This document shows, in pieces, positions 42,921 through 62,111 of a DNA stretch of 64,000 nucleotides. A program made the position numbers and the translations under genes. This DNA comes from Natronococcus sp. AD-5. Lineage in GTDB: Archaea; Halobacteriota; Halobacteria; Halobacteriales; Natrialbaceae. Each line of letters begins with the position of its first letter. Position 1 is the first letter of the stretch. The notes below the pieces were generated by a model. It made no database searches. It was not told where the DNA came from and worked only from the letters and a program-made list of their open reading frames with translations. The stretch covers positions 248,001 to 312,000 of the forward strand of contig NZ_CP132295.1 in the NCBI RefSeq assembly GCF_030734285.1, written 5' to 3'.

Positions 42921-43877
42921 TCAAATCGAGACCGGTTCGCCGGTTTCGATCGCTTCGTTTGCGGCCAGCGTTAGCTCGAGGGTTCTCGCGGCGTCCGCGT
43001 AGTCGCTCCTGACGTGCGTTTCGTCTCGCTCGTTCACGGCGGTAACGAACGCGTCCACCTCTCGACGGAGGGCTTCCGTCGAGTCGGTCGACTCGTACTC
43101 GATAGCCTCGTCGTCCACCGTTCCGGCGAGCGTCCCGTGAGTGAAATCGAGTTCGAGGTAGAAACCGTCGCCGGCCAGCTCGAGCTTGCGACCGATCGAC
43201 GTCACGCAGTTCGTCGAGATGTGACTGACCGCGCCGTTTTCGTGTTTCATCGTGGTAGAATTGACGTCCTCGAAGTCGATCGACTCGAGGTTCACGCGCG
43301 ACCCGCCGAACGCGGCGACGCGCTCGACGTCGCCGCCGAAGTAGCGAACGAGGTCGAAGACGTGCGTCGACAGCTGTACGTTGCTCCCGCCGGACTTCGC
43401 TTTCCGTCGGCCCCACTCGCGTCCGGGAACGCCGCCCCAGTATCGTCCCTCGATGAGGCTTATCGTTCGGTCACCGATCAGTTCCTCGGCCCGGTCGACC
43501 AGACTCGAGTACCGGGACAGGTATCCGGACTGGGTGATGACGCCGTGTTCCTCGATAGCGGTCCGGATTTCCGTCGCCTTCTCGTTCGTCCGCGCGACCG
43601 GTTTCTCGACCAGCAGGTCGAGGCCCCGTTCCGCGGCACCGATCGCCTGATCGGTATGCGCGAACGAGGGGATCGCCAGAACGACGGCGTCGAGCGATTC
43701 GTTCCGATAGAGTCGGTTGTGATCAGTATACACCGCCGCCTCGCGCGGCTCCGCTGCGGCGCGAGCGGTCTCCTCGTCTAAATCGCAGATCGCGGTGACG
43801 CGAACGTCGTCGCGACGGTCGAACTGTTCGAGCAGGCGCTGGCCCATGATGCCGGCTCCGACGCAGGCGAGATCCAT
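42921..43877 (-). CDS. Gfo/Idh/MocA-family oxidoreductase
   Basis: The 318-residue protein has the N-terminal Rossmann motif DLACVGAGIMGQRLLEQF, AICDLDEETARAAAEPREAA and GLDLLVEKPVARTNEKATEI, in which EKP carries the family Lys. Next is QSGYLSRYSSLVDRAEELIG, and the C-terminal substrate domain includes SGGSNVQLSTHVFDLVRYFG with the usual His. The enzyme would oxidise or reduce a sugar or sugar acid with NAD(P). GGTGAT directly precedes the ATG, but a frame extending upstream to 44639 is only a shadow of the next gene. It is transcribed with the binding-protein genes upstream, or from its own AT-rich promoter at about 43885-43905. Confidence 0.85.
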   Translation of the reverse strand: MDLACVGAGIMGQRLLEQFDRRDDVRVTAICDLDEETARAAAEPREAAVYTDHNRLYRNESLDAVVLAIPSFAHTDQAIGAAERGLDLLVEKPVARTNEKATEIRTAIEEHGVITQSGYLSRYSSLVDRAEELIGDRTISLIEGRYWGGVPGREWGRRKAKSGGSNVQLSTHVFDLVRYFGGDVERVAAFGGSRVNLESIDFEDVNSTTMKHENGAVSHISTNCVTSIGRKLELAGDGFYLELDFTHGTLAGTVDDEAIEYESTDSTEALRREVDAFVTAVNERDETHVRSDYADAARTLELTLAANEAIETGEPVSI

Positions 43878-44008: not shown

Positions 44009-45856
44009 CTACCCCGACGGAGAGACGTGACCGCGCTTCACGCCGCGGAACGCACCGCGGTACGCTTCCCAGTCCTTGGTGTCCGTGTGGAAGTCGAAGT
44101 CGCGCGTGTTGCCGAAGGTCCCCGTCTGTACCTCGACGAGATCGAGACCGGGCAGGTGGAAGTTCCAGTACCACGAGAACGTCTCGGCGATCTCCTTGTT
44201 GCGCTGTTCGTCCTCGACGGTTCGCCACTCCTGGTCGAGTTCGAAGATGTTGACCTCCTCGGTCGAACCGGAGAGATCCTCCTGTCCGACCTCGGTCGGA
44301 AGTTCGACGACGATCTCGCGACCGTTGTACGGCGACCGCGTCTCTCCCTCGTCGAGGGCCTGCTGGACGTCGATCGCATCGCCCAGTTCGTTGCTGTGGG
44401 TGTGGTTGTGCCGGAAGTAGTAGAACGGGTGTGCGGTCTGTGCACCGTGACTGCCGATGGTCATGTCGAAGTCGATGATGTCCGACGTGCGATCGTTGAA
44501 CGTCGCCGACTCGAGGGCGTTGAGGTCGATCTCGAACCCGAAGTTGATGAGTTGGTCCGAGATCGTCCGTGCGAGGTTCGTCTGGTAGTCCGGGATCACC
44601 AGTTCCAGCGAAACGGGATCGCCGTCTCCATCGATCCACTGGTCGTCCTCGCGTTCGTACCCGGCCTGTTCCATCAGCGCCGTCGCGCTCGCCTCGTCGT
44701 CTTCGACCGCGTAGTCGATGTAGTCCGCGACGTAGTCGTCGCCGAGCCAGTTCGACGTGACGTCCGACGGAAGTCCGGTCTGGGCCTCCCGCGGCGTACT
44801 CTCGTTGTTGTAGTTCGTCGAGATGTGCTCGAGGTTCAGAACGTGTGCGATCGCCCGTCGAACCTCGTACTGGCGGATGTGTTCCGATCCCGGGCCCTGC
44901 TCGTAGAACTCGAGCTTCCGCATGAACGAGTCCTCGTATACGGAAACGTCCGTCATGTGATCGGGAGCCGCCCCCTCACCGACCCACTGCTGCAGCAGGC
45001 CGAAGCCGAAGTCGACGTCGCCGCCCCGAATTCGCTGTGCGAGTGCGTCGTTCTTCGCGAGGACGAACTCGAACTCGTCGATTTCGATCTGGTCGGCGTA
45101 CGGGTGGTCCTCGAACAGTTCGAAGTAAATCCCTTCCGTATCGTAATCGACGATCTCGAACGGGCCGTTTCCGAGTCCTTCCTCCACGACCGTCGAGATG
45201 TGAAGCGGCATCTCCTCCGCCATCTTCTCCTGGATCTCCAGGCGCTCGTCGTGGTCTGCCGCGTCCTGGAGGTCCTCCGCCCACGGCTTGCACTTGTCGC
45301 GGTGGATCCGTTGCATCGCGCCGAGGTAGCCGCCCAGTTGGTACTGGAGCAACTCGGGGTTCTGCGGCTCCTTGTACACCCGGGTGAGCGTCATCTCGTC
45401 CTCGAGAACGAGATCCTCGAGGTCGCTGCCGTCCCCCTGGAAGAGACGGGCACACTCCTCGAACCAGTACTTGTCCTCGGCGGTGATCCGGTCGCCGTTC
45501 CACCAGTACCAGCCGTCGGCGAACTCGACCGTCACGGCCTGTTCGTCCGAATCGTACTCCCAGTCCTCGATCTGCTCGAGCTCGATCGATCCGTCGGCGA
45601 AAAACCGCTGAACCGGCTCGAGAATCAACCACGACTGGGACCACGGGTACCCCCCCGCCCAGTGGTTGAAGTTCATCTCGTCCGGGATCGTCGGCTGCCA
45701 CGAGGAGATCCGACTCGTCGAACTGTCGTCCGTCTCACCACCCATACAGCCAGCGAGCCCCCCCGCGACCATCGCCGAACTCGCGGCGAGCATCTGCCGC
45801 CGCGTCAGGAACGCCTCGGCAGAGTCCACGGTTCCGTATCTGTCACTGTTTGGCAT
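44009..45856 (-). CDS. ABC transporter substrate-binding lipoprotein (SBP_bac_5), paralog 1
   Basis: The 615-residue protein has a Tat signal with lipobox: TRRQMLAASSAMVAGGLAGC, so it is anchored outside the membrane. The body fits the oligopeptide/nickel-type binding-protein family: DEMNFNHWAGGYPWSQSWLI, FADGWYWWNGDRITAEDKYW and NGPFEIVDYDTEGIYFELFE, then VRRAIAHVLNLEHISTNYN. Some members of this family bind beta-linked oligosaccharides rather than peptides. It is about 70 percent similar by eye to the paralog at 45929-47770. Both lie divergent from the transporter genes. A promoter box sits 25 bp upstream, suggesting a leaderless transcript. Confidence 0.88.
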   Translation of the reverse strand: MPNSDRYGTVDSAEAFLTRRQMLAASSAMVAGGLAGCMGGETDDSSTSRISSWQPTIPDEMNFNHWAGGYPWSQSWLILEPVQRFFADGSIELEQIEDWEYDSDEQAVTVEFADGWYWWNGDRITAEDKYWFEECARLFQGDGSDLEDLVLEDEMTLTRVYKEPQNPELLQYQLGGYLGAMQRIHRDKCKPWAEDLQDAADHDERLEIQEKMAEEMPLHISTVVEEGLGNGPFEIVDYDTEGIYFELFEDHPYADQIEIDEFEFVLAKNDALAQRIRGGDVDFGFGLLQQWVGEGAAPDHMTDVSVYEDSFMRKLEFYEQGPGSEHIRQYEVRRAIAHVLNLEHISTNYNNESTPREAQTGLPSDVTSNWLGDDYVADYIDYAVEDDEASATALMEQAGYEREDDQWIDGDGDPVSLELVIPDYQTNLARTISDQLINFGFEIDLNALESATFNDRTSDIIDFDMTIGSHGAQTAHPFYYFRHNHTHSNELGDAIDVQQALDEGETRSPYNGREIVVELPTEVGQEDLSGSTEEVNIFELDQEWRTVEDEQRNKEIAETFSWYWNFHLPGLDLVEVQTGTFGNTRDFDFHTDTKDWEAYRGAFRGVKRGHVSPSG

Positions 45857-45928: not shown

Positions 45929-47770
45929 TCACTTCGGCGAGACGTGGCCGCGCTTTACGCCGCGGTACGCACCGCGGTAGCAGCTCCAGTCTTTCGTGTC
46001 CGTACGGAACTCGAAGTCTCGAGTGTTGCCGAAGGTCCCGCTCTGTACTTCGACGAGATCGATCCCGGGCAGGTGGAAGTTCCAGTACCACGAGAACGTC
46101 TCGGCGATCTCTCTGCTGCGTTCCTCGTCGGCGGTGACCCGCCACTCCTGGTCGAGTTCGAAGAGGTTGATCTCCTCGGTCGGGCCGGAGAGGTCGTCGC
46201 TCCCGACTTCCGACGGAATCTCGACGACGATCTCGCGACCGTTGTACGGCGCGCGCGTCTCCCCTTCCTCCAGCACGTCTTCGATCACGCCGGTATCGCC
46301 CATATCGAGGGAGTGAGTGTGATTGTGTCGGAAGTAGTAGAACGGGTGCGCGATCAGACCCCCGTGCTCGCCGATGGTCATGTCGAAATTGATCGTGTCT
46401 TCGGTGTTCGCTCGGTAGGTCGCCCCCTCGAGCACGTTGAAGTCGACCTCGAAGCCGAAGGTGGCGAGCTGGTCCGAGACCGTCCGTCCGATGTTGGTCT
46501 GGTGGTCGGGAACGACGATCTCGAACGACACGCGAGCGCCGTCTTCGTCGATCCACCGGTCGTCCTCGCGTTCGTACCCGGCCCCTTCCAGCAGTTCGAC
46601 CGCCACCTCCTCGTCGGTTTCGGCGGAATAGTCGATGTACTCGGCGACGTAGTCGTCGTCGAGCCAGTTCGACGTGACGTCGGCCGTGAATCCCGTCTGC
46701 GCCTCGCGGGCGGTGCTCGGCGTGCTATAGTTGTCGGAGACGTGGTGATTGTTGACCAGGTGTGCGATGGCCCGCCGGACCTCGCGGTTGCGGAGGTGCT
46801 CCGACCCTGGCCCCCGCCCGAATATCTCGATCCGGCGCATAAACGTGTCGTCGTACCTGTGGATGTCCTCTACGTGATCGGTGACCGCTTCGTCGCCGAC
46901 CCACGTCTCGAGGAGGCTGTAGCCGAAGTCGGCGTCGCCGCCCTGGAGCCGCTGTGCAACCGCGTCGTCCTGCGCGAGGATGAACTCGAGTTCGTCGACC
47001 TCGATCTCGCCGGCGTAGGGGTGGTCCTCGAACAGTTCGCAGTAGATCCCCTCCGTGTCGTAATCGACGATTTCGAACGGCCCGTTCCCGAGTCCTTCCT
47101 CCGCGACCGTCGAGATGTGCAGCGGCATCTCGTCGGCCATCCGGTCTTCGATTTCGAGGCGCTCGTCACGGTCCGCCGCGTCCTGGAGGTCTTCCGCCCA
47201 CGGCTTGAACTTGTCCCGGTGGACGCGTTGCATCTCGCCGAGATAGCCGCCGAGTTTGTACTCGACCAGTTCGGGATTCTGCGGCTCCTTGTACACCCGG
47301 GTGAGCGTCATCTCGTCCTCGAGGATGAGGTCTTCGAGGTCGCCGCCGTCACCCTGGATGAGCCGAGCGCACTCCTCGTACCAGTACTTGTCCTCGGCGG
47401 TGATCCGGTCGCCGTTCCACCAGTACCAGCCGTCGGCGAACTCGACCGTCACGGCCTGTTCGGCCGGATCGTACTCCCAGTCCTCGATCATCTGATTTTC
47501 GATGGAGCCGTCGGTGAAGAACCGCTGGACGGGCTCGAGAAGCAGCCACGTCTGTGACCACGGGTACCCCGACGCCCAGGTGTTGAAGTTCATCTCGTCG
47601 GGAATCATCGGCTGGAACGTCCCGATCGTGTTTCCGGCGTCGGTTCGCTCTCCGCCGAGACACCCCGCGAGTCCGCCGGCGACCATCGCCGAACTCGCGG
47701 CGAGCATCTGCCGCCGCGTCAGGAACTCCTCGGCCGAGTCGACACAGTGGTGCGTGTCATCATCCGGCAT
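45929..47770 (-). CDS. ABC transporter substrate-binding lipoprotein (SBP_bac_5), paralog 2
   Basis: The roughly 613-residue protein repeats the architecture of paralog 1. It has TRRQMLAASSAMVAGGLAGC at the N-terminus, DEMNFNTWASGYPWSQTWLL and FADGWYWWNGDRITAEDKYW. NGPFEIVDYDTEGIYCELFE and VRRAIAHLVNNHHVSDNYS come later. Several blocks are nearly identical to paralog 1 at the DNA level while others differ, so the two may bind related but different ligands. ATGs at 47770, 47776 and 47824 are possible. I favour 47770 because the TATA box at 47792-47800 then gives a leaderless transcript, as in paralog 1. The gene overlaps nothing and is intact. Confidence 0.87.
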   Translation of the reverse strand: MPDDDTHHCVDSAEEFLTRRQMLAASSAMVAGGLAGCLGGERTDAGNTIGTFQPMIPDEMNFNTWASGYPWSQTWLLLEPVQRFFTDGSIENQMIEDWEYDPAEQAVTVEFADGWYWWNGDRITAEDKYWYEECARLIQGDGGDLEDLILEDEMTLTRVYKEPQNPELVEYKLGGYLGEMQRVHRDKFKPWAEDLQDAADRDERLEIEDRMADEMPLHISTVAEEGLGNGPFEIVDYDTEGIYCELFEDHPYAGEIEVDELEFILAQDDAVAQRLQGGDADFGYSLLETWVGDEAVTDHVEDIHRYDDTFMRRIEIFGRGPGSEHLRNREVRRAIAHLVNNHHVSDNYSTPSTAREAQTGFTADVTSNWLDDDYVAEYIDYSAETDEEVAVELLEGAGYEREDDRWIDEDGARVSFEIVVPDHQTNIGRTVSDQLATFGFEVDFNVLEGATYRANTEDTINFDMTIGEHGGLIAHPFYYFRHNHTHSLDMGDTGVIEDVLEEGETRAPYNGREIVVEIPSEVGSDDLSGPTEEINLFELDQEWRVTADEERSREIAETFSWYWNFHLPGIDLVEVQSGTFGNTRDFEFRTDTKDWSCYRGAYRGVKRGHVSPK

Positions 47771-47791
47771 AGACATACTGCATACGTTATA

Positions 47792-47800
47792 GGTTAAATA
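47792..47800 (-). promoter_or_regulatory. TATA-like box of SBP paralog 2
   Basis: TATTTAACC on the minus strand, identical to the box before paralog 1 and 22 bp upstream of the ATG at 47770. The shared box suggests parallel expression of both binding proteins. Confidence 0.55.
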
Positions 47801-47872
47801 GTTGACTACAGACGCACTTTTCACCGGTCGGCCGATCGTTCTTCCGTTCCCCGCGGTCGAATGGGCGCCGAG

Positions 47873-48133
47873 TCAGTCTCGGCGAAGTCGCTTTAATAGC
47901 AGGTAAAACGACCCAGCCGAAACGATCGCGGAAATACCGAACACGCCGAGCATGCCCGCGATGATGCCGTCCTGGCTGGTGAGCTGGACGCCGCTCTCGA
48001 AGACGGCGGCGACGAGCAGGAGGACGACGCCGATCGCGACGATCGACAACAGAAGCGATCCCCGGAGTACCTTGAGGAGCCTGTAGAGTAGTTCTTCCGT
48101 TCGGCGTGGTTCGCTCTTCGAAGCAGTTGCCAT
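47873..48133 (-). CDS. Small two-helix membrane protein next to the transporter
   Basis: The 86-residue product has a basic start (MATASKSEPRRTEELLYR) and two membrane helices (LLLSIVAIGVVLLLVAAVF and MLGVFGISAIVSAGSFYLLL) ending KRLRRD. No family is recognised. It is transcribed divergently from the ABC ATPase gene from a shared promoter region. A second small two-helix protein (50570-50794) lies inside the transporter operon, so these may be accessory subunits. The open frame extends far upstream (to 48847) only as a shadow. The frame is intact. Confidence 0.65.
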   Translation of the reverse strand: MATASKSEPRRTEELLYRLLKVLRGSLLLSIVAIGVVLLLVAAVFESGVQLTSQDGIIAGMLGVFGISAIVSAGSFYLLLKRLRRD

Positions 48134-48159
48134 TGTGTCTGACCTACGTTCTGTAAGAT

Positions 48160-48235
48160 TCGGTATAAATCTTTGCCCACCGGCTCCGGGTGCGGCCGGC
48201 GAGACGGCGCCGATCGTCGCAAAGATTAATATGTG
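48160..48235. promoter_or_regulatory. Divergent promoters with matching BRE/TATA motif
   Basis: GCAAAGATTTATA on the minus strand (about 48165-48177) and GCAAAGATTAATA on the plus strand (48219-48231) face away from each other, forming a 9-bp inverted repeat (AATCTTTGC / GCAAAGATT). Each looks like a BRE plus TATA box. The left one would drive the small membrane protein gene at 48133 with almost no leader, the right one the ATPase operon at 48332 with a leader of about 75 nt. Confidence 0.55.
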
Positions 48236-48331
48236 TGTTGTGACAAACCATCGCTTACGGAAGACCGATGTCCCGCTTCGTCGAAGCATCGATACGAGGG
48301 ACAGAGCGGATCGGCATCCATCAGCTGAACT

Positions 48332-50524
48332 ATGACCCGAACTGAAACTGAACTCGATATCACACACGAAAATAGCAGCTCGCAAGACGTTATTCTCGAG
48401 GCGCGTAACGTGGACGTAACGTTTGACATGGATCGTGGCACCTCTCGCGTCCTCGACAACGTGAGTTTCGACGTCCACCGGGACGAGATGCTCGGAATCG
48501 TCGGCGAAAGTGGGAGCGGAAAGTCGATGTTCGCGTCGGCCCTGCTCAACGCCGTCGTCGACCCCGGCCGGACGTCCGGCGAGATCGTTTACCACCCTCC
48601 CGACGGAGAGCCCGTCGACGTGCTTTCGCTGAGCGAAGACCAGCTCGAGCGGTTCCGCTGGGAAGAGATCTCGATGGTGTTCCAGGGGGCGATGAGTTCG
48701 TTCAACCCGACGATGAAAATCGGGGAGCACTTCGAGGAAACGATCAGGGCCCACGGAAAAGACCTCGCGGATCGGATGGAACACGGACGCCAGCTGCTCG
48801 CGGACCTGTACCTCGATCCGGATCGGGTCCTCGATTCGTACCCCCACGAACTGTCCGGCGGGATGAAACAGCGGACGCTCATCGCGCTGAGTTTGCTCCT
48901 CGAGCCGAAGGTGCTCGTGATGGACGAGCCGACGGCGGCGCTCGACTTGCTCATGCAGCGATCGATCATGAGTCTCCTGGGAGACTTACAGGAGGAGTAC
49001 GACCTGACGATCGTCTTTATCACCCACGACCTGCCGCTCGTCGCTGGACTGGCCGATCGACTCGCCGTCATGTACGCCTTCGAGTTCGTCGAGTACGGCC
49101 CGAGCGAACAGATCATTCGGGACGCCGCACACCCTTACACGCGAGCATTGTTGAAGTCGGTGCCGAGCGTCGACGCGTCCCTGGAGGACATGCATCCGAT
49201 CGAGGGGGAAAGCCCCGATCCTGTCGAGGCCCCGAGCGGCTGTTCGTACCACCCTCGCTGTCCGCTCGCGACCGAGGAGTGCGTACAGGCGGATCCGGAG
49301 TACCACGACGTCAACGACGAACGAGGAGCCGCCTGCTTCCGCTGGGAACGGTCGAGCGACGAAATCGAGTACGCGCTCGGCGTCGATCCGGACGAGCCCG
49401 CGAAGTCGTCTTCGGTATCCGAATCCGCCGAGGAGACCGTCGTCTCGCTAGACGACGTCGACGTTCACTTCGAACAATCGGGACTCATCGACGAACTGTT
49501 CGGCAGGGAGCGCGTCGTTCGTGCGGTCAACGACGTGTCGATCGACCTCCGGGAAAACGAAGTCGTCGCACTCGTCGGCGAGTCCGGGTGCGGGAAGACG
49601 ACCCTCGGCAAGACCGCGATCGGTCTCCAGGAACCGACGGGTGGCTCCGTCGCGTACCGAGGCCAGGATATCGAAGCGGCGAAACGCGGACGCGGCGGCG
49701 CCGAATTCGAGGAGATTCGACGCGCCCTACAGATCGTCCACCAGGATCCCGGGAGTTCGCTGAACTCCTCCCGGACGGTCCGTGCGAGCCTCTCGGCGCC
49801 GCTGAAACGGTGGCGGCCGGATCTCGGCCCGAGCGACCGGGAAACGGTGATCTACAACCTGCTCGAGCGCGTCGGCATGAAGCCGCCCGAGGACTACGCG
49901 GCACGGTTCCCACACCAGCTCAGCGGCGGTGAACAACAGCGCGTCGTCCTCGTTCGCGCGCTACTGATGAGTCCCGATCTCATTCTCGCCGACGAGGCCG
50001 TCTCCGCGCTGGACGTCTCGTTGCGGGTGGAGATGATGGACCTGATGCTCGATCTGCAGGAGATGTTCGACACGTCGTACCTGTTCATCTCCCACGACTT
50101 CTCGAACGCGCGGTATCTCACCGAGAAGTCCGACGGGCGGATCGGCATCATGTATCTCGGCAACCTCGTCGAGATCGGCCCGGCACGGGAGATCATTCGC
50201 GACCCGAAACACCCCTACACCAAGGTGCTCCGGTGGGCGACGCCGCCGCTCGATCCGGACGAGGCCGAGGAGGCGAACGCCACCGATCCGCCGATTCGGG
50301 AGATCGACATCCCCGACCCGACGGACCCGCCGAGCGGCTGTCCCTTCCAGACGCGATGCCCCGACGCTCGCGAGGTGTGTACGCGGGAAGCGCCCGAACT
50401 GAACGAAACCGAGGGCGCCTCTCGCGTCGCCTGCTTCCGCGAGGACGACCGCCACGAGTACTGGGACAGCGAACCGGTCGAGGGCGAGACGGTCTCGCTC
50501 GATACGAAAAGCGAAGCCGACTGA
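48332..50524 (+). CDS. Fused double ABC ATPase of the oligopeptide type (DppD-DppF fusion)
   Basis: The 730-residue protein holds two complete ATPase domains. Domain 1 has Walker A GIVGESGSGKSMF, signature ELSGGMKQR and Walker B VLVMDEPTAALD. Domain 2 has Walker A ALVGESGCGKTTL, signature QLSGGEQQR and LILADEAVSALD. Each ends in an oligopeptide-type C-terminal domain with spaced Cys (CSYHPRCPLATEEC and CPFQTRCPDAREVC). In most bacteria these are two proteins, DppD/OppD and DppF/OppF. In domain 2 Walker B continues DEAVSALD, where DEPTSALD is usual. It powers import through the permeases encoded downstream. Confidence 0.9.
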   Translation: MTRTETELDITHENSSSQDVILEARNVDVTFDMDRGTSRVLDNVSFDVHRDEMLGIVGESGSGKSMFASALLNAVVDPGRTSGEIVYHPPDGEPVDVLSLSEDQLERFRWEEISMVFQGAMSSFNPTMKIGEHFEETIRAHGKDLADRMEHGRQLLADLYLDPDRVLDSYPHELSGGMKQRTLIALSLLLEPKVLVMDEPTAALDLLMQRSIMSLLGDLQEEYDLTIVFITHDLPLVAGLADRLAVMYAFEFVEYGPSEQIIRDAAHPYTRALLKSVPSVDASLEDMHPIEGESPDPVEAPSGCSYHPRCPLATEECVQADPEYHDVNDERGAACFRWERSSDEIEYALGVDPDEPAKSSSVSESAEETVVSLDDVDVHFEQSGLIDELFGRERVVRAVNDVSIDLRENEVVALVGESGCGKTTLGKTAIGLQEPTGGSVAYRGQDIEAAKRGRGGAEFEEIRRALQIVHQDPGSSLNSSRTVRASLSAPLKRWRPDLGPSDRETVIYNLLERVGMKPPEDYAARFPHQLSGGEQQRVVLVRALLMSPDLILADEAVSALDVSLRVEMMDLMLDLQEMFDTSYLFISHDFSNARYLTEKSDGRIGIMYLGNLVEIGPAREIIRDPKHPYTKVLRWATPPLDPDEAEEANATDPPIREIDIPDPTDPPSGCPFQTRCPDAREVCTREAPELNETEGASRVACFREDDRHEYWDSEPVEGETVSLDTKSEAD

Positions 50525-50569
50525 AATCGACCAAAAGCTTTTGCTATCGTACCGAAACGTCAGAGACAG

Positions 50570-50794
50570 ATGAGCGGCAAATACGATAAAACGTTTCTCG
50601 ACCACCTCTGTGACTACGAGAGCGCGTGGCGGATGTTGTTCACGTTCTCGGCGGGCCTGCTCGGACTCATGATCATCTGGATCGTCGCCGCCGAACCCGG
50701 CTCCGAGACGTTCGTCATCGCACTCATGAACGTCGTGGGGCTTTCCGGACTCGCGGTACTGAGCGGTGGGGTACTGTGGCGGTGCCTCTGGTGA
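50570..50794 (+). CDS. Small two-helix membrane protein within the transporter operon
   Basis: The 74-residue product reads MSGKYDKTFLDHLCDYESAW, then two helices (MLFTFSAGLLGLMIIWIVAA and VIALMNVVGLSGLAVLSGG) and ends WRCLW. No family is recognised. It lies 45 bp after the ATPase gene and 70 bp before the first permease gene, all on the same strand, so it is probably expressed with them. It could be a subunit or a stabiliser of the transporter. The frame is intact. Confidence 0.65.
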   Translation: MSGKYDKTFLDHLCDYESAWRMLFTFSAGLLGLMIIWIVAAEPGSETFVIALMNVVGLSGLAVLSGGVLWRCLW

Positions 50795-50864: not shown

Positions 50865-51887
50865 ATGAGATACTTTGCCAAGCGAGCGATTCACGCAGTC
50901 GTGACGCTCGTCTCCGTAACGACGATCACGTTTGCGCTATTTCGGCTCATGCCGGGTAACCCCGCCCAGGCGATGCGTGCGCAGTTCGAGGCGGACATGG
51001 AAGCAGGTGGAGGGACGGCCGATCCCGAGGTGCTCGATGCGATGGTCGAACAGCACACCGGATTCGATCCCGATCAGCCGTGGTACGTCCAGTACGTCGA
51101 GTACCTGCAGGACATCATTCTCTACCAGGACTTCGGTCACTCGTACTTCTACAACGACCCTGTGTTCGATATCCTGTTTACGGCGATGCCGTGGTCGGTC
51201 TTCATCAGCGTCTACGGCCTGGCGTTCGGATACACGACGAACATCCTTCTCGGGGCAGCAATGGCCTACAAGGAGGGATCGCGGTTCGACAGTTACATGA
51301 CCGTGCTCGCGACGTTCCTGAACTCGGTTCCGTACTACGTGGGCGCGATCCTCTTTCTCGCGTTTTTCGGCTACGAGCTCGGACTCTTCCCGACCGGCGG
51401 ACGATACAACACGAGTCTAGAAACCGGTCTGAATGTCCGATTCATGGCCAGCATCTCCTACCACGCCGTACTGCCGATCATGTCGAGTTTCATCGTCGGC
51501 TTCGGCGGGGGAGCCCTCTCGATGCGAGGGAACTCCATTCGCATCCTCGGGGAGGACTACCTCCGCGTCGCACGGCTTCGCGGAATCAGTTCGACGCGTA
51601 TCGCGACCCGCTACGTCGCGCGCAACGCGATCTTGCCGCTGTACACCCAGATGATGATCGGTATCGCCGCGGTGTTCTCGAGCAGCGTCCTCCTCGAGTT
51701 CATCTTCACGTATCCCGGCGTCGGCTGGTACACGTTCGACGCGGTCATGCGTCGGGATTACCCGCTGTTGATGGGGTCGTTCCTCTTCTTCACGATCGTC
51801 ACGCTCATCGGAATCCTCATCGCCGAATTCACGTACGGCCTCGTCGACCCACGGATCGGATCAGGTGATCACAGTGAGTCATACTAA
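50865..51887 (+). CDS. ABC transporter permease, DppB/OppB type
   Basis: The 340-residue protein has the DppB-type N-terminus MRYFAKRAIHAVVTLVSVTT with ALFRLMPGNPAQAM, five to six helices and the cytoplasmic EAA loop reading LGEDYLRVARLRGISSTRIA. The C-terminal part holds EFIFTYPGVGWYTFDAVMRR. It forms half of the membrane channel. It overlaps the start of the DppC-type gene by 23 bases, so translation is coupled. The frame is complete. Specificity is set by the binding proteins, not by this gene. Confidence 0.9.
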   Translation: MRYFAKRAIHAVVTLVSVTTITFALFRLMPGNPAQAMRAQFEADMEAGGGTADPEVLDAMVEQHTGFDPDQPWYVQYVEYLQDIILYQDFGHSYFYNDPVFDILFTAMPWSVFISVYGLAFGYTTNILLGAAMAYKEGSRFDSYMTVLATFLNSVPYYVGAILFLAFFGYELGLFPTGGRYNTSLETGLNVRFMASISYHAVLPIMSSFIVGFGGGALSMRGNSIRILGEDYLRVARLRGISSTRIATRYVARNAILPLYTQMMIGIAAVFSSSVLLEFIFTYPGVGWYTFDAVMRRDYPLLMGSFLFFTIVTLIGILIAEFTYGLVDPRIGSGDHSESY

Positions 51888-52989
51888 CGAATCAGGACTG
51901 GAAACGGACGGGCAGCTAACCGACGAACAACTGTTCGGCCACCTCGCCGAGGCCGACACCGTCGATCTCTCGAGACGGGAACGTCTCGAGCGGATCCTGG
52001 ACGCGTACGTCCTCGCGCCGGGGCGGATTGCCTGGAACGACTGGCGAACGCGGGTCGGGATACTGGTCGTCACCCTGTTCGTCTTTTCCGGAACTATCGG
52101 GCCGCGCCTGGTGACGGCACCGGGGACGAATCAAGCTCCGAACGATCTACGGCCGTTCCACGGCGGTATCGCCGCCCTTTGGGAAGAGGGGGGGTGGATC
52201 GACTTCGGCTTCTCCCACCGGCTTTCGCTGGGCGCGATCTCCGTCCCAGGGGTCGATATTCGGTTCCCGCTCGGCGCCGATAACTACGGGACGCCGATCG
52301 GTCGGAACCTCGTCCACGCGACGCCGGACATGCTCGAGATGGTGGTCGCCGGAGCGATCATCTCCGTGGGGCTCGCCGCGATGTTCGGAATTACGGCCGG
52401 GTACAAGGGCGGCAAGGTGGACGAATTCCTCATGTACGTCACGGACGTCGTCATGACGATGCCCGGGTTGCCGCTGCTCATCGTGCTTACGGCGATCTGG
52501 TCGCCCCGACAGGCGTGGGTCGTCGGCGCCGTTCTGGCGATCGACGCCTGGCCGGGACTCGCACGGGCGCTCCGGTCCCAGGTCCTGACCCTCCGCCAGG
52601 AGTCGTACGTCGAGGCCTCTCGAACGATGGGACTTTCCTCGAGTACGATTCTCGCTCGGGATATCTCACCGCAGCTGATGCCGTACATCCTCATCAACTT
52701 CGCGAACGCCGGACGCCAGGTCGTGTTCGGCTCCGTCGCGCTGTACTTCCTCGGCGTCCTCCCGTTCACGAGCGCGAACTGGGGTATCATGATGCAGACT
52801 GCGTATTCGGAAGCGCACGCGCTGGTCAATCTGAGCAACTTCTACCAGATCTTCTGGCCGATGGCCGCGGTCGTCGTCCTCTCGTTCGGACTGATCCTCT
52901 TCGCGCAGGGAATGGACCGCGTGTTCAACCCGCGCATCAGAGCGCGACACGCGAAGAAGGTCGGCAGCGACGAAGAGCAACTCAACTAG
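51865..52989 (+). CDS. ABC transporter permease, DppC/OppC type
   Basis: The 374-residue protein has a long acidic cytoplasmic N-terminus (TDEQLFGHLAEADTVDLSRR), a first helix VGILVVTLFVFSGTIGP, a periplasmic-side loop typical of DppC, and the EAA loop QESYVEASRTMGLSSSTILA. The last helix FWPMAAVVVLSFGLILFAQG is followed by RVFNPR. It pairs with the DppB-type subunit. The GTG at 51865 lies inside the end of that gene; a second GTG nine bases later is also possible. The frame is intact. Confidence 0.9.
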   Translation: MITVSHTNESGLETDGQLTDEQLFGHLAEADTVDLSRRERLERILDAYVLAPGRIAWNDWRTRVGILVVTLFVFSGTIGPRLVTAPGTNQAPNDLRPFHGGIAALWEEGGWIDFGFSHRLSLGAISVPGVDIRFPLGADNYGTPIGRNLVHATPDMLEMVVAGAIISVGLAAMFGITAGYKGGKVDEFLMYVTDVVMTMPGLPLLIVLTAIWSPRQAWVVGAVLAIDAWPGLARALRSQVLTLRQESYVEASRTMGLSSSTILARDISPQLMPYILINFANAGRQVVFGSVALYFLGVLPFTSANWGIMMQTAYSEAHALVNLSNFYQIFWPMAAVVVLSFGLILFAQGMDRVFNPRIRARHAKKVGSDEEQLN

Positions 52990-53070: not shown

Positions 53071-54282
53071 CTATGAGAGCGTCGCCCGGATGCGATCGAC
53101 GACGTAGTCGACCTCCTCGTCCGTGAGACACGCCGGGTTGACCGTGAACTCGTCGTCGTCCAGTCGGTCGGCGCCGACGAACACGCGCGGCGTTTCCCGC
53201 CTGAGCGACCCGACGAGACCCGTCGCGTCGGTCGCCGCGCGATCGGGATCGACGGAGGCGGTGACCTGGGAAACGGCGTCGGTCTTGTCGCCGCCCTCGA
53301 TCCGGGTCTCGAGGCCGGGAACGTCGGCGAGCGCCGACTCGAGGCGCTCCGCGCGCTCGTGCCACTCCCGGAGCCGAGCGTCGTGGTCCTCCTCGACGAA
53401 CAGCTCGAGCGCGCGAATCAGGCCGACGATCTCCTCCTTGCCGACCTTCATCGAGCGGCCGACCCCCTGGCGCGGAACGCCCGGCAGCTCGTCGGCGCCG
53501 ACCAGGTCCGCCGGCGGGTCGTACACCGCGTCGGCCGCGTGCATGTCCAGGTGCTGGCGGGCGACCGACCGGATCAGTTCCTCGTCGCCGGCGAGGAACC
53601 CGGTCGACTGGGGGCCGCGGATCGCCTTCCCGCCGCTGAACGCGACGAGGTCGGCACCCTGCTCGATAAACCGCGAGAGGTTCTCCGCCGGCGGTAGCTC
53701 CGCCGCCGCGTCGACGATGACGGGGACGTCGTTGTCGTGGGCGATCTCGCAGACCGTCTCGAGCGGCGGCTGCGTGTAGGGTTTTTCCATGTAGGCGACG
53801 GCGGCGGTTTCGTCCGCGATGGCCGCCCCGATCTCCCACGGCTCGACGTTCTCCGAGCCGGTCCCGAGGTGGTAGTCGTTCGTTCCGACGTCGACGATCG
53901 TCGCCCCGGGCAGTCGAAGGGCGTGATCGTAGCCGTTTCGGTGGGTCCGCGGCATGACGATTTCGTCCGGGATTCCCTCGGTGTCGGGGAGCCGCGCCAT
54001 CACCTCGAGGTCGTCGCCGGCGAGACACGCCGCGGCGGCCATCGACAGCGCGGAACTCGCGCCGCTCGTGACGTAGCCCGCGTCGGCGCCGGTCGCCTCG
54101 GCGATGAGTTCCGAGGCGCGCTGTTGTAAGTCCGAGATGCGGACGAACGCCCGCGAGGCGTCGCGCATCGCGTCCGCCGCCTCCTCGCGCATCAGCGTTC
54201 CGCTGATCCGGGTTTTCGTCCCGGTCGCGTTGACGACGGTCGGCACGCCGAGCTCGTCGTAGATCGTCGCCTCGTCAGCCAC
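53071..54282 (-). CDS. SelA/DgaE-like PLP-dependent enzyme
   Basis: The 403-residue protein has the SelA-like PLP fold. VPTVVNATGTKTRISGTLMR is followed by TGADAGYVTSGASSALSMAA (PLP phosphate site) and DVPVIVDAAAELPPAENLSR (cofactor Asp). Then comes GADLVAFSGGKAIRGPQSTG with the Lys that binds PLP. The group includes selenocysteine synthase and D-glucosaminate-6-phosphate ammonia-lyase (DgaE), which gives 2-keto-3-deoxygluconate 6-phosphate. In a sugar locus a DgaE-like or other amino-sugar acid lyase role is more likely, but this is inference. It is convergent with the permease operon and divergent from the first lyase gene. Confidence 0.75.
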   Translation of the reverse strand: MADEATIYDELGVPTVVNATGTKTRISGTLMREEAADAMRDASRAFVRISDLQQRASELIAEATGADAGYVTSGASSALSMAAAACLAGDDLEVMARLPDTEGIPDEIVMPRTHRNGYDHALRLPGATIVDVGTNDYHLGTGSENVEPWEIGAAIADETAAVAYMEKPYTQPPLETVCEIAHDNDVPVIVDAAAELPPAENLSRFIEQGADLVAFSGGKAIRGPQSTGFLAGDEELIRSVARQHLDMHAADAVYDPPADLVGADELPGVPRQGVGRSMKVGKEEIVGLIRALELFVEEDHDARLREWHERAERLESALADVPGLETRIEGGDKTDAVSQVTASVDPDRAATDATGLVGSLRRETPRVFVGADRLDDDEFTVNPACLTDEEVDYVVDRIRATLS

Positions 54283-54515
54283 GTCGGATCACCGAAGGGG
54301 ATCGAACTGTCATGAGTCGTCGTCCCGTTCGAAAACGGGTCAGAAAAAACTTCCGTCGTCCGAACCGCTCTCCGTCTTCGGCGACGATCCGTCGAGGCCG
54401 TCTCGGGCTACGGGGACTCTCGTAGCGCCGAAACGAGTCGAGGTTCGAAACGCTATTTTATAGTTCGAACGGGCGTGGATAAACTATATTATCGCCGAAC
54501 CGAATGTGTTAGTTG
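54283..54515. promoter_or_regulatory. Promoter region of the first heparinase-like gene
   Basis: CGCTATTTTATAGTTC at about 54450-54465 is a TATA candidate. The 33 bp before the ATG resemble those before the second copy: (C)TAT-TATCG, GAA, then ATGTGTTaGtTG or ATGTGTTtGgTG directly before the start codon. The shared leader suggests common control. Confidence 0.45.
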
Positions 54516-57500
54516 ATGACAGGCAACAGGAGGGGTGCGAATAGCGGTAGCTGGTACGACGAGAAACTGTGCGAGGTAGCCGGTCGTGTCGTCGAGAGCG
54601 ACGTCTCGCGCCGGTCCGTGCTCACGACGACGGGCGCGGGGATCCTTGGGAGTCTCGTCGCCGGGACCGCCGCGGCGGACGACGGGTCCGGGACGCGCAA
54701 CGCGAAGACGCGAACGACGATCTGGACCGAGGAGATGCGCGAGAACGCCCGCCGCAACGTCGAGCGCTTCGACTGGGCGGCCGCCGAACGCGACGCCGCC
54801 GTCGCGAGCGCCGACGAGTACCTCGAAGAGCACACGCTGGACGACCTCTGGCACATGGTCACGTCGCAGAAGATTCCCCGCGGAGGCGGCGTCGCCGGAT
54901 TCCGCGAGGATACGATGGGCGGTTACGACGACCCGGGAACGGACCGGCCGTGGAAGATGCGGACGGCGACGGAGGAGTACGTCGTGCCGACGAACGACTT
55001 CGCCGCCTACCGCGAGAGCGGCCTCGACGACCGCGGAATGTTCGATCCGGCTCTCGCGGACGACCAGTACCTCGTCAACGAGGAACACCCCGAGATGGGC
55101 GAGGGCTGGGGCGTCGACGACGGTACGGGGTGGATCGACGAAGACGGCGACATCGGCTCGCCGGGCGAGCGGATGAATTTCGTCGCCTTCTACAACCACT
55201 GGCACGTCTGGCGCCCCGGCGGGATTCTCCGGATCGTGCGGGCGCTCACCGACGCGTACCTGCTCACCGGCGCCCGGAAATGCTCCCGGGCGGGGACCGT
55301 CCTGCTCGATCGCATCGCCGACGTCTACCCGGAGATGGACGTCTCGGCGTACGTGCAACCCGACTACTGGAACAACCACGGCGGACGGCAGACGGGTCGC
55401 GTGATCGGCGGTAGCTGGGAGCCGAACCTCGTCCGTGACCTTCTCCGGGCGTACGACGCGTTCTTCCCGGGGATGGACGGCGACGACGAACTGATCGCGT
55501 TCCTCGACGCGAAGACCGAGAAATTTCCCGGCCTCGAGGAGAAAGATTCCGTCGAGAAGATCCGCGAGAACATCGAGGACAACTTCGTTCGCGAGATGCT
55601 GCCGGCGGCGAAGAACTCCGATCTGGTTCCCGGTCGCGGTCAACTCTCGACGGTGGCGATCTCCGCGCGCGTCCTGGACGAACCCGACGGCTACACGAAA
55701 GACGCCATCGAGTTCGTCTTTCAGCCGGGCGGGGAACGGTTCGTCGGCGACGTCTGGAACCGCGAACCCGAGAACTGGATCACGACCGGCGGCGACCTCC
55801 TCGTGCCGGTCGTCGACGTCTGGGACCGCGACGGCTACTCCAACGAGGCCGCGCCGCTGTACAACCGCATCGAGATGTCGTCGATTCGCCAGGTGGCGGA
55901 GGCGCTGAAGGGGTACGACGCCTTCGACGGCGCCGACCTCTACCAGCACCCGAAGTTCCGGCACGCGCTCCGACAGAACTCCCACCTGCTCCTGATCGAT
56001 CAACACACACCCGAAATCGGCGACACCCATCCGAATCAGGACGACAACTACCTCAGCCAGTCCGCCATCGAAGACGGTTACGAAGTCACGGGCGACGAGA
56101 TTTTCGCCCAGCTGTGGCACTTCGCGAACGGGTACTCGACGGCGGGAATCGACGGCGACGTCTTCGACGCCAACCCGGGAGGGATCAGCGACGAGATCGA
56201 AGCGATCGTCGACGCCGAGGGGCCGCTCGATCTCCCCAGCCAGAACTTGGCCGGCTACGGCTTCGCCGCCCTTCGCGACGGGGAGAACTACCTGGACGAA
56301 TCGTTCGGGATCACGTACGACTTCTCGAACCTGTTCGCGGACGCGTCGACGGAGGTCGACGACAGCTTCGACGAAGCCATCCAGCTCAACGCGGACGACG
56401 ACGGCGAGTGGTGGGAGTTCGAGTTCGACGTCGACGCGGCCGGCGAGTACGACCTCGAGATCGAGACGCTGTTCGTCTCGACCTACGGCACTTACGACCT
56501 GTACGTCAACGGCGAGCGGATCGACGTCGTCGACTTCTACAGCCCGACGTTCGACCGCGAGACGATCGCGTACGCGACGGAGCTGGCGGAAGGAAGCAAT
56601 ACGATCCGCTTCGAGAACGTCGGGCGGAACGAAGCGTCGGGCGGCTATCGAATGGCCGTCTACTACCTCGAGCTCTTCGACGCCGACGATCGCGAGCGCA
56701 GAGAGCGGGCGGCGGCGCTCGGCAACGCGAAACGGGCCTTCTGGCTCTACTACGGTCGTAACAGCATCAACGGCGGCGGAAGCGCTCACAACCACGGCGA
56801 TACGCTGAATCTGGGCGTCGCGGCGCACGGTCTCCAGCTCTCGCCCGACCTCGGATACCCCGAGGCGACCGGAAGCTGGCCCAAGCGACGCAACTGGACG
56901 GCGAACACGATCAGTCACAACACCGTAACGGTCGACGGGGAACGGCAGGATCCCCAGTGGGTCGGCGATCCGCGCCACTTCGAGGGAAGCGACGACCGAG
57001 TGAACCTGATCGACGTCGACGCGCGACACGCGTACGAGCAGTGTGACGAGTATCGCCGCACGACGGCGATGGTCACGGTCGACGAGGAACACTCCTACGC
57101 CGTCGACTTCTTCCGCGTCGCCGGCGGCGACGACCACCACTTTAGCTTTCACGGCGCGAAAGGCGAGGCGAGCGCCGACGGCATCGACCTCGTCCCCCAG
57201 GACGGCGGCACGTACGCCGGCGAGGACGTCCCCAAACCCGGCTACGGCGAGGATACCGAGTACAATCGGACCGTCGGCAGCGGCTTCAACTACCTCGACA
57301 ACGTCGAACGCGACGCCGACCCCGGCCGAACGGTCGCGATCGACTGGGACGTCGAGGATCACTGGAACGATCGCGACGACGACGCCGACGGCGTCCACCT
57401 TCGGCTGACCACCTTCGGCGAGTTCGACGAAGTCGCGCTCGCCGACGGCCATCCGCCCGACCTCGGCGGTAATCCCGAGTCGCTCCGATACGCGTTGTTG

Positions 57501-58220
57501 CACCGCAGCGGCGCCGACCTCGAGAGCACGTTCCTCTCGACGATCGAGCACTACGACGGCGACCGCGTCGTCGAATCGGTCGAGGAGGTCGCCGTGTCCG
57601 GCGGCGACGGTCGCGCCGTCAAAGTCGACCTCGCGACCGGGCGAACCGACTACGTCGTCTGCACTGACGGAGAAGAGAGCACAGTCACCGTCGACGGGAC
57701 GTTCGAGTTCCGCGGCTTCTTCGGCCTCTACTCGGTCGAAGACGGCGAGTCGGAGTACGCGTACGTCCACGACGGAACGTTGCTCAAGCCCGTCGACGGT
57801 CAGCCAGTGATTCAGGAATCGCAGGGATTCGTCCGCGGGTTCGTCGAGGACTTCACGCGAGGGATGCGCCTCGAGAACGAACTCGAACTCCGGGTTCCGG
57901 ACGAGCGACCGGCGCTCGAGGAACGCATCTCGGATTTCGTCTACGTCGACAACGACGCGTCCGATAGCTGGCGCGGCGACCGCTACGAGGAGCACCAGCC
58001 GATCGAAGAGCGAGACCAGCGAGGGGTGGGCAACGGTGCATACCCCGTCGAAGGCGTAACCGTCGGGGACGGAAACGAAGTGACCGTCGACGTCGGCGAG
58101 CGAACGTTCGTCCGGCAGTTCGCCGATCCGGATCGACTCGAAGAGGGCGGGTACGAGTACATCGTCGACGTCGGCGAAGACGTCAAAATCCCGCTGACTG
58201 CGGCCTGGTCGCAGACGTAG
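54516..58220 (+). CDS. Tat-exported heparinase II/III-like polysaccharide lyase, copy 1
   Basis: The roughly 1,234-residue protein has a Tat signal (SRRSVLTTTGAGILGSLVAG) and then an alpha/alpha toroid region to about 610 (NHWHVWRPGGILRIVRALTD, YSTAGIDGDVFDANPGG). A compact beta domain at about 616-720 (EWWEFEFDVDAAGEYDLEIE, YDLYVNGERIDVVDFYSP) looks like a carbohydrate-binding module. The toroid then resumes with GNAKRAFWLYYGRN and the catalytic-type HNHGDTLNLGVAAHG near 757. SHNTVTVDGERQ near 800 opens the heparinase II/III beta-sheet domain. Such enzymes cleave uronic-acid polymers by beta-elimination outside the cell. The substrate is unknown. The protein is about 75 percent identical to copy 2 by eye, with near-identical tracts. 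Confidence 0.82.
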   Translation: MTGNRRGANSGSWYDEKLCEVAGRVVESDVSRRSVLTTTGAGILGSLVAGTAAADDGSGTRNAKTRTTIWTEEMRENARRNVERFDWAAAERDAAVASADEYLEEHTLDDLWHMVTSQKIPRGGGVAGFREDTMGGYDDPGTDRPWKMRTATEEYVVPTNDFAAYRESGLDDRGMFDPALADDQYLVNEEHPEMGEGWGVDDGTGWIDEDGDIGSPGERMNFVAFYNHWHVWRPGGILRIVRALTDAYLLTGARKCSRAGTVLLDRIADVYPEMDVSAYVQPDYWNNHGGRQTGRVIGGSWEPNLVRDLLRAYDAFFPGMDGDDELIAFLDAKTEKFPGLEEKDSVEKIRENIEDNFVREMLPAAKNSDLVPGRGQLSTVAISARVLDEPDGYTKDAIEFVFQPGGERFVGDVWNREPENWITTGGDLLVPVVDVWDRDGYSNEAAPLYNRIEMSSIRQVAEALKGYDAFDGADLYQHPKFRHALRQNSHLLLIDQHTPEIGDTHPNQDDNYLSQSAIEDGYEVTGDEIFAQLWHFANGYSTAGIDGDVFDANPGGISDEIEAIVDAEGPLDLPSQNLAGYGFAALRDGENYLDESFGITYDFSNLFADASTEVDDSFDEAIQLNADDDGEWWEFEFDVDAAGEYDLEIETLFVSTYGTYDLYVNGERIDVVDFYSPTFDRETIAYATELAEGSNTIRFENVGRNEASGGYRMAVYYLELFDADDRERRERAAALGNAKRAFWLYYGRNSINGGGSAHNHGDTLNLGVAAHGLQLSPDLGYPEATGSWPKRRNWTANTISHNTVTVDGERQDPQWVGDPRHFEGSDDRVNLIDVDARHAYEQCDEYRRTTAMVTVDEEHSYAVDFFRVAGGDDHHFSFHGAKGEASADGIDLVPQDGGTYAGEDVPKPGYGEDTEYNRTVGSGFNYLDNVERDADPGRTVAIDWDVEDHWNDRDDDADGVHLRLTTFGEFDEVALADGHPPDLGGNPESLRYALLHRSGADLESTFLSTIEHYDGDRVVESVEEVAVSGGDGRAVKVDLATGRTDYVVCTDGEESTVTVDGTFEFRGFFGLYSVEDGESEYAYVHDGTLLKPVDGQPVIQESQGFVRGFVEDFTRGMRLENELELRVPDERPALEERISDFVYVDNDASDSWRGDRYEEHQPIEERDQRGVGNGAYPVEGVTVGDGNEVTVDVGERTFVRQFADPDRLEEGGYEYIVDVGEDVKIPLTAAWSQT

Positions 58221-58418
58221 TCGAAGTTCGCGGTCGTCGAACCGGTTTCGGCAGTGGAGCCAGTCCGTCCGGATCGTCGGGCCGAGAAGGAAACCGCTCG
58301 TCGACTCCAAACGCATTCTTTCGTCGTTATCTCGGAAATATCATACTGAATACATGGTTCTCTGAAATAGTGAATATGAGGAAAAGTTCTATTATCGATG
58401 AATCTCATGTGTTTGGTG
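58221..58418. promoter_or_regulatory. Spacer between the two lyase genes, with shared leader
   Basis: The spacer carries TCTATTATCGATGAATCTCA and ATGTGTTTGGTG before the ATG at 58419, matching the leader of copy 1 (TATATTATCGCCGAA, ATGTGTTAGTTG). A TTTCG rich stretch after the first gene could end its transcript. Copy 2 therefore probably has its own promoter. Confidence 0.45.
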
Positions 58419-61400: not shown

Positions 61401-62111
61401 CACCGCAGCGGCGCCGACCTGAAGAGCACGTTCGTCTCGACGATCGAGCACTACGACGGCGACCGCGTCGTCGAATCGGTCGAGGAGGTCGACGCGATCG
61501 GCGGCGACGCCCGCGCCGTCAAGGTCGAACTCACGACCGGGCGGACCGACTACGTCGTCTGCACCTTCGGGGAGGTGAGTACGGTCACGGTCGACGAGAC
61601 GTTCTCGTTCCGCGGCTTCTTCGGCCTCTACTCGGTCGAAGACGGCGAGCCGGAGTACGCGTACGTCCACGACGGCACGCTGCTCAAACCCCTCGATCGA
61701 TCCCCCCTCGTCCGGGAATCGGCCGGCTACGTCCGGGGATTCGTCGAGGACTTCACGCGGGGGATGCGTCTCGAGAACGAACTCGAACTCCGGATTCCCG
61801 ACGATAAAGACGAGATCGATCGCAACGCCGGATTCGTCTACGTCGACAACGACGATTCCGATCCATGGCGAGGACGGCCCGACCTGCAGATCCCGGCGAT
61901 CTCGGAACCGCGCGGCCGCGGCAACGGCGCGTATCCGATCGAGAACTTCGAGGTCGGCGGCGGGAACACGGTGACCGTCGACGTCGGCGAACGGACGTTC
62001 GTCCGGCAGTTCGACGATCCCGACGAACTCGAAGACGGGGGCTACGAGTACATCATCGAACGCAACAACGATGTCAGGATCCCGCTGACCGCGACCTGGT
62101 CGCGGGAGTAG
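58419..62111 (+). CDS. Tat-exported heparinase II/III-like polysaccharide lyase, copy 2
   Basis: The roughly 1,230-residue protein repeats copy 1. It has a Tat signal (SRRSLLAATGGGILAGLTAG), toroid (NHWYVWRPGGILRIVEALAD), inserted beta domain at about 619-722 (EWWEFEFEADASDEYDLEIE), then GNAKRAFWLYYGRN and YHNHSDTLNVGVAAHELEL near 756. SHNTVVVDEEEQHTQ opens the beta-sheet domain. It differs from copy 1 mainly around residues 125-145 (RQLMGWSWTGVGIDRALDRP) and in the loop before HNH, where copy 1 has a Gly-rich insertion. Those sites may change the substrate. The upstream start at 58398 is possible, but MSRNEWSG aligns better with copy 1. Confidence 0.82.
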   Translation: MSRNEWSGKRSDRYDEQSAVTDRAIDVEVSRRSLLAATGGGILAGLTAGAGTASADSDAFNAKSRLTLWTEEMRENARRNVERYDWAATERDSAVGSADEYLEEHTLDDLWHMVTSQKIPRGGGTTHFRQLMGWSWTGVGIDRALDRPWKMRTATEEYVVPTNDFAAYRESGLDDRGMFDPALADDQYLVNEEHPEMGEGWGVDDGTGWIDEDGDIGDEGQRMNFAAYYNHWYVWRPGGILRIVEALADAYLLTGDRKYSRAGTVLLDRIADVYPEMTIYDYPDPEYWNSTGGRGTGKVIGATWESNLMRPIIQAYDAFFPGMDGDDELIAFLDAKTDEYPGLEGKDSVEKIRKNIEDGILREVLPAAENSDIILESGGYSALAQSARVLDEPDGYTREAIEWIFQPGKEKFVGDQWDEEPENWITTGGNILAPLVDVVDRDGYNNRGSPMYNRIRQTSFREAADHLQGYDGFDGADLYQHPKFRQTLRQNTHLLLLDRYVPEIGNAHPNRNADYLSTSSIEAGYQATGRDIFAQLWHFVNGYSTVGIRGSIFDADPEGVADEIRAVIDAEGPLDLPSQNLAGYGFAALRDGTNYLNRSFGTIYDTSELFAEASTDVNDSFDEAIQLQAYEEGEWWEFEFEADASDEYDLEIETLFVSTYGIYDLYINGERIDTVDFYSPSFDRDTITYTVELPEGTNTMRWENVGKNEESDNYLMALYYLTLIDESERENREAASELGNAKRAFWLYYGRNDITYHNHSDTLNVGVAAHELELSPDLGYVEATGDWPKGHNWTMNTVSHNTVVVDEEEQHTQWVSTPRHFDGADDRVNLVDVEAPHVYPQADEYRRTLATVAVDEEHSYAVDFFRVAGGDDHHFSFHGAKGEASADGVDLVPQDGGTYAGEDVPKPGYGEDTEYNREVGNGFNYLDNVERDADPGRTVAIDWDVEDHWNRRDDDADGVHVRLTTFGEFDEVALADGHPPQHSGNPETLRYALAHRSGADLKSTFVSTIEHYDGDRVVESVEEVDAIGGDARAVKVELTTGRTDYVVCTFGEVSTVTVDETFSFRGFFGLYSVEDGEPEYAYVHDGTLLKPLDRSPLVRESAGYVRGFVEDFTRGMRLENELELRIPDDKDEIDRNAGFVYVDNDDSDPWRGRPDLQIPAISEPRGRGNGAYPIENFEVGGGNTVTVDVGERTFVRQFDDPDELEDGGYEYIIERNNDVRIPLTATWSRE

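Follow-up and report, generated by a model that had tools for sequence, protein, structure and literature searches.

Does an Opp-type ABC importer of haloarchaea contain small membrane subunits that are missing from the usual list of its parts? Importers of the Opp type belong to the most widespread in prokaryotes, and their set of required parts is generally held to end with two permeases, two ATPases and one binding protein. The question is raised by a 64,000-nt stretch of Natronococcus sp. AD-5 (NZ_CP132295.1, positions 248,001-312,000), analysed as a whole and hereafter called the window, in which the genes of such an importer are accompanied by those of two small predicted membrane proteins, P86 and P74 (Table 1).

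All the core subunits encoded at the locus match Opp/Dpp-type ABC importer families in Pfam and NCBIfam. The fused ATPase contained two ABC_tran and two oligo_HPY stretches (oligo_HPY E 1.7e-38), the permeases gave two BPD_transp_1 matches, with the N-terminal domain in OppB (E 1.5e-31, 1.9e-09 and 1.8e-25), and the two substrate-binding proteins (SBPs) matched SBP_bac_5 with E 7.5e-23 and 6.7e-24. The SBPs are similar and stand in tandem for one transporter, and the same pair was found in Natronococcus sp. CG52, a plasmid of which is the closest named relative of the locus, with the same gene order and a P74 of 86.5% identity. P86 is the first gene of the minus-strand set and is followed by the two SBP genes, while P74 is indeed located between the ATPase and permease genes, where the first-pass annotation had put it. 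Both small proteins are annotated as hypothetical proteins in CG52, and only as hypothetical in the named records examined.

Table 1. Features of the window bearing on the small membrane proteins (window coordinates)
Feature	Position	Strand	Details	Basis
Gfo/Idh/MocA sugar dehydrogenase	42921-43730	-	Downstream of the SBP genes; portion of a longer ORF, start provisional	NCBIfam
Second SBP_bac_5 substrate-binding protein	44009-45856	-		Pfam
SBP_bac_5 substrate-binding protein	45929-47824	-	Carries a Cys and an RR signal motif; GTG 47824 is the mechanical start, the ATG at 47776 being the more convincing one by eye	Pfam
P86	47873-48133	-	86 residues, ATG start; predicted two-helix membrane protein, proposed second accessory protein	
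Divergent intergenic region P86/ATPase	48134-48331	.		
TATA-like box ATTTATA	48164-48170	-	31-37 bases ahead of the start codon of P86	
TATA-like box ATTAATAT	48225-48232	+	Within the stretch GTCGCAAAGATTAATA, identical in 5/5 strains	
Small inverted repeat TTGTGACAA, possible operator	48238-48246			By eye
Opp-type ATPase, OppD and OppF halves fused	48332-50524	+	730 aa	Pfam/NCBIfam
Spacer before P74	50525-50569	+	Conserved TTTTGCT; AAAAGCTTTT palindrome in the window copy	
P74	50570-50794	+	74 residues, ATG start; predicted two-helix membrane protein, proposed accessory subunit	
OppB permease, haloarchaeal clade	50865-51887	+		Pfam/NCBIfam, OppB profile, tree
OppC permease	51865-52989	+		Pfam/NCBIfam
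PLP enzyme	53071-54282	-	Closest NCBIfam models are DgaE-type ammonia lyases, below cut-off	
Large heparinase II/III-domain protein	54513-58220	+	Context, substrate hint	Pfam
Second large heparinase II/III-domain protein	58398-62111	+		

P86 and the ATPase operon had been said to share a divergent promoter. The divergent layout is as described, with 198 bp from the P86 start to the ATPase start and a conserved TATA-like box on each strand of this gap in the five strains compared, and these boxes are putative promoters. The spacer in front of P74 could possibly hold its own promoter or operator.

Both small reading frames are genes under purifying selection, with dN/dS against the CG52 homologues of 0.061/0.55 = 0.11 for P74 and 0.106/0.53 = 0.20 for P86. 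The structure model of P74 (mean pLDDT 81) is a hairpin with helices at residues 6-15, 17-40 and 46-73, and that of P86, with helices at 10-25, 27-48 and 56-85, is weak (pLDDT 66). These models suggest the membrane topology of both proteins and agree with their earlier description as two-helix proteins, though less securely for P86. Neither protein has a Pfam or NCBIfam match near a curated cut-off, so that their placement outside known families holds. In scans of 29 P74 and 18 P86 members, only single members touched a Pfam family (E 0.0006-0.0085), and the candidate identities (DUF1206, SLAC1, FtsK_4TM, Yip1 and others) were rejected as sub-threshold or single-member matches. A fold search of the P74 model against the PDB, for which a helix hairpin is an uninformative query, gave 293 matches, none with E <=0.001 and the best at 0.27. 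A common origin of P74 and P86 was also rejected, as profile comparison found none (probability 2.5).

P74 has a nearly invariant pair of cysteines, Cys14 and Cys72. Of 71 sequences chosen from 110 non-redundant ones, 64 retained the pair, 3 had Cys72 alone, none had Cys14 alone and 4 had neither, giving totals of 64 for Cys14 and 67 for Cys72, and 88 of the 110 contained two cysteines spaced 45-70 residues apart. The Haloferax copies (L253:7717-7935 and relatives) have lost both conserved cysteines. Of 50 selected P86 sequences, at least 45 retained each of the residues S26, G35, G56, A59 and G66. At L142:9860-10108 (also in L045), a P86-like segment opens a longer membrane protein of ~240 residues, a possible fusion.

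Single-sequence queries (E 0.01) detected 86 genomes with P74 and 31 with P86 among the 391 Halobacteria genomes; with profiles at E 0.001, the corresponding numbers were 138 and 74, comprising at least 150 P74 places and 103 P86 places. A scan of the phylum found P74 in 5 of 196 genomes, all of them the organism's own or of the same family or order, the number of the 196 that lie outside the order not being stated.

The distribution of P74 follows one clade of OppB. An OppB profile separated the OppB proteins of 12 whole genomes into two groups, 43 at E <1e-117 and 73 at E >1e-73. A P74 gene was located no more than 12 kb from 38 of these 43 clade OppB genes, and from none of the 73 others. 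The corresponding counts for P86 were 16 of 43 and 1 of 73, and four of the 43 had neither protein within this distance. Seen from the small protein, 38 of the 42 P74 places were within 12 kb of a clade OppB, vs ~2.2% of random points (binomial P 6e-59, Fisher P 2e-25), and the copy numbers, 42 P74 and 43 clade OppB, were nearly one to one. The OppB genes used to seed the clade profile (A3) were neighbours of small-protein matches, so that the border of the clade is not fully independent of them, a concern that is eased by the gap between E 8e-118 and 1e-72. P74 is confined to one transporter clade and retained along with it, P86 only in part. The first-pass annotation had tied the small proteins to the transporter and had named homologues scattered through genomes without such a link as the finding that would speak against this; across these genomes P74 was not scattered in that way, and its tie to the transporter is very strong. 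The further remark that no small subunits are standard in transporters of the Opp type is consistent with the OppB genes outside the clade, none of which had P74 and only one of which had a P86 match nearby. The window locus codes for an Opp/Dpp-type ABC importer whose clade was met in this analysis among haloarchaea alone. Two of the eight OppB places in the genome of the window belong to the clade, and the second of these has a weak P74 match 4.3 kb off (E 0.008, single sequence), which the profile search at E 0.001 did not contain.

A census in the reverse direction gave a similar picture. Among 80 named loci selected solely on their OppB sequence, as the top 80 of 412, 62 had P74, 42 had P86 and 16 had neither, and with larger profiles these counts became 64, 47 and 14. 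In a quick tree of these rows, 45 had both proteins, and all but one of these fell in one OppB group of 53 rows (support 99), whose remaining rows were seven with neither and two with P86 only; the other group of 24 rows had mostly P74 only. In all seven exceptional rows, P74 was found 10.4-15.4 kb off, beyond the stretch first read, which overturned the idea that this group had lost P74 and that a Yip1-domain protein had replaced it. A Yip1-domain membrane protein is encoded just upstream of OppB in the seven-row group, with a DUF7519 protein further up (L211:9120-9953, L244:9223-9951, L213:6765-8021). Eleven genomes picked because some OppB there seemed to be without both small proteins contained 69 P74 and 73 clade OppB genes (r 0.99), with equal numbers in 8 of the 11; one of them (G558) appears, by contig and coordinates, to be identical with G344 of the 12-genome set and thus common to both sets. 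Of these 73 clade OppB genes, 59 had P74 at a distance of up to 12 kb and 66 at up to 17 kb, leaving seven without it inside 17 kb. Since some clade OppB genes have no detectable P74, it is perhaps not strictly required.

P74 and P86 were found together far above chance: 64 of the 103 P86 places had a P74 place within 12 kb among the P74 matches listed. The matches listed formed 189 clusters, of which 64 held both proteins, 86 P74 alone and 39 P86 alone, and the 20-kb surroundings were examined for 64, 46 and 20 of these, respectively. OppB or OppC was present in 60 of the 64 regions with both, 42 of the 46 with P74 only and 11 of the 20 with P86 only. The four regions with both proteins and no OppB or OppC in the stretch (L084, L086, L087, L089) contained SBPs, and in at least three of the four OppB was located 10.5-15.4 kb from P74, beyond the 20-kb stretch (G161, G282 via G554, G344). 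Among the four regions entered as P74-only and without OppB or OppC, L148 and L170 had an Opp-like ATPase truncated by the end of the stretch or contig, L155 had an ATPase pair and an SBP, and L152 in fact held P86 and two SBP genes. The claimed link of P86 with the transporter is therefore real, given its frequent company with P74, but looser, as OppB, OppC or SBP genes occurred in 15 of the 20 examined P86-only regions and none of the three in the other 5. P86-like genes without Opp genes were seen in sugar-acid catabolic surroundings at L128, L135, L137, L139 and L141 (near position 10000 or 9100).

With relatives beside nearly every importer of this type across the genomes analysed, P74 is probably a working part that has been overlooked. 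On balance we favour the reading that P74 is a dedicated two-helix accessory subunit of the clade importer, in physical contact with it as we infer. Near-obligate as it is, its hairpin would probably be packed against the OppB/OppC membrane core, and it would be needed to assemble the core or to couple it productively to the binding protein. The cysteine pair, predicted at both helix ends on the same membrane face, could tie the two helices to each other or act as an anchor for a lipid or a metal. P86 may be a second two-helix companion, working mostly with one large subclade of the importer. A subunit role for P86 is a reasonable possibility of which we are less than convinced, because P86-like proteins also occur in catabolic clusters outside the Opp clade and its tie is weaker.

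The arrangement of the genes bears on the partner of P74. In a survey of 153 loci, which included copies of one genome under two handles, the Opp gene closest to P74 was most often that of the SBP (90 loci), followed by ATPase (44), OppB (10) and OppC (9), and P74 was on the same strand as its nearest Opp gene in 95 and on the opposite strand in 58. At L253, a relative of Haloferax gibbonsii, the genes are ordered P74-SBP-OppB-OppC-ATPase-ATPase-P86. Because its position varied over 12 arrangements and either strand, the linkage of P74 outlasts rearrangement, and a gene that keeps its company in this way is probably held there by function. As P74 is more often nearest to the SBP gene than to OppB, the SBP could be its partner, and the small proteins might then act on the SBP lipoprotein, in its export, lipidation, membrane anchoring or docking to the membrane. 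P86 stands first ahead of the SBP genes in the window, and both small proteins adjoin SBP genes in 20 kb without OppB or OppC in five regions (the four mentioned above and L152). However, OppB follows just beyond that stretch in at least three of those regions, P74 follows the OppB clade, and over 123 loci the pairwise-distance correlation of P74 with SBP (0.38) was no better than that with OppB (0.46), those with OppC and ATPase being 0.38 and 0.29. We regard an SBP-directed role as unlikely. The distance correlations, which cannot separate contact from linkage, weakly favour OppB as the partner of P74. The P74-OppB value is below that of OppB-OppC (0.74), a difference that a rapidly evolving protein with loose coupling would show as well, and P86-OppB reached 0.46 (79 loci).

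Less likely still, the small proteins could be regulators that respond to substrate flow, redox or membrane state by switching the transporter or the genes that encode it. The cysteine pair would suit a redox switch, the genes are often divergently placed, and AcrZ is a known example of a small membrane protein that tunes a transporter (accessible part of PMC7267776). On the other hand, a sensor domain is absent from these proteins, Haloferax P74 dispenses with the cysteines, and a copy number near one to one over many transporters fits a subunit better. That they are passengers of sugar-use clusters, travelling with the transporter genes and doing some other membrane job, is improbable at least for P74, which was absent near all 73 non-clade OppB genes and which stays while the gene order varies and the flanking catabolic genes change between loci, although P86-like proteins do occur in Opp-free clusters with aldehyde dehydrogenase, enolase-family, DHDPS-family, epimerase and Gfo/Idh genes. 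The clade-bound linkage leaves little room for a toxin, phage or mobile-element origin.

The neighbouring genes suggest oligosaccharide rather than peptide uptake. The clusters in CG52 and Natrinema zhouii contain heparinase II/III proteins and Gfo/Idh oxidoreductases, with a GH3 enzyme in Natrinema zhouii, and of 10 flanking proteins hand-picked from 15 other loci, five were sugar-related (oligogalacturonate lyase, rhamnogalacturonan lyase, arabinofuranosidase, GH3 and Gfo/Idh). The other five were two HEAT-repeat proteins, one acetyltransferase, one luciferase-like protein and one without a match. The word oligopeptide, used for this transporter in the first-pass annotation, is thus probably misleading, and automatic annotation likewise calls sugar-type Opp operons dipeptide transporters. 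The most likely cargo would be oligosaccharides freed by secreted lyases or glycosidases. ABC oligosaccharide transporters are named in the corresponding clusters of polysaccharide-using haloarchaea, and the accessible parts of these papers make no mention of a small subunit (PMC13260240, PMC10963439, PMC12343721). The heparinase II/III proteins of the window are tandem products of 1235 and 1237 residues, of which Pfam recognises only the C-terminal domain. HEAT-repeat proteins of ~300-390 residues recur in or beside clade Opp clusters (L146:8851-9753, L178:10337-11251, L272:8358-9518), and could be a further accessory.

If P74 is near-obligate, reconstructions of haloarchaeal nutrient importers would have missed a component throughout a whole clade, and P74 could serve as a marker for sugar-type Opp operons. 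A bolder proposal, which we put forward as rather doubtful, is that these transporters form a haloarchaeal class of oligosaccharide importers whose core is OppBC plus one or two small hairpin subunits, that the cytosolic cysteine pair of P74 gates or locks this core, and that, where both are present, the small pair is as integral as OppB and OppC.

Descriptions of P74, P86 or any small subunit of an Opp-type importer were not found among the literature titles and abstract openings searched, which covered few subscription journals. AcrZ and KdpF have a single helix and serve other transporter classes. They are nonetheless small membrane proteins that work with a transporter, AcrB and KdpABC, respectively (accessible parts of PMC7267776 and PMC3618439). 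Their single transmembrane helix contrasts with P74, whose model is a hairpin, and a relation was probed by Pfam and NCBIfam scans. The closest known kind appears to be the ABC importers with a small membrane subunit, namely the cobalt and nickel importers with the two-helix subunits CbiN and NikN, which have their topology in common and little likeness in sequence (PMC2667541, in its accessible part). As there, a small protein with two transmembrane helices is encoded beside an ABC importer, is tied to a subset of the importers and is sometimes absent or replaced (same source). P74 and, with its weak model, P86 are predicted to share the two helices and the length of ~70-110 residues, whereas the 29 P74 and 18 P86 members gave no match to the CbiN family at E up to 0.01. 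CbiN and NikN occur beside an ECF module of the CbiM/CbiQ/CbiO type, whereas the partner genes in the window are of the Opp type with a binding protein, and P74 has in addition its cysteine pair. From ordinary Opp/Dpp importers, with which it shares SBP_bac_5, BPD_transp_1 and oligo_HPY, the haloarchaeal importer differs in forming a separate clade and in its extra small membrane proteins.
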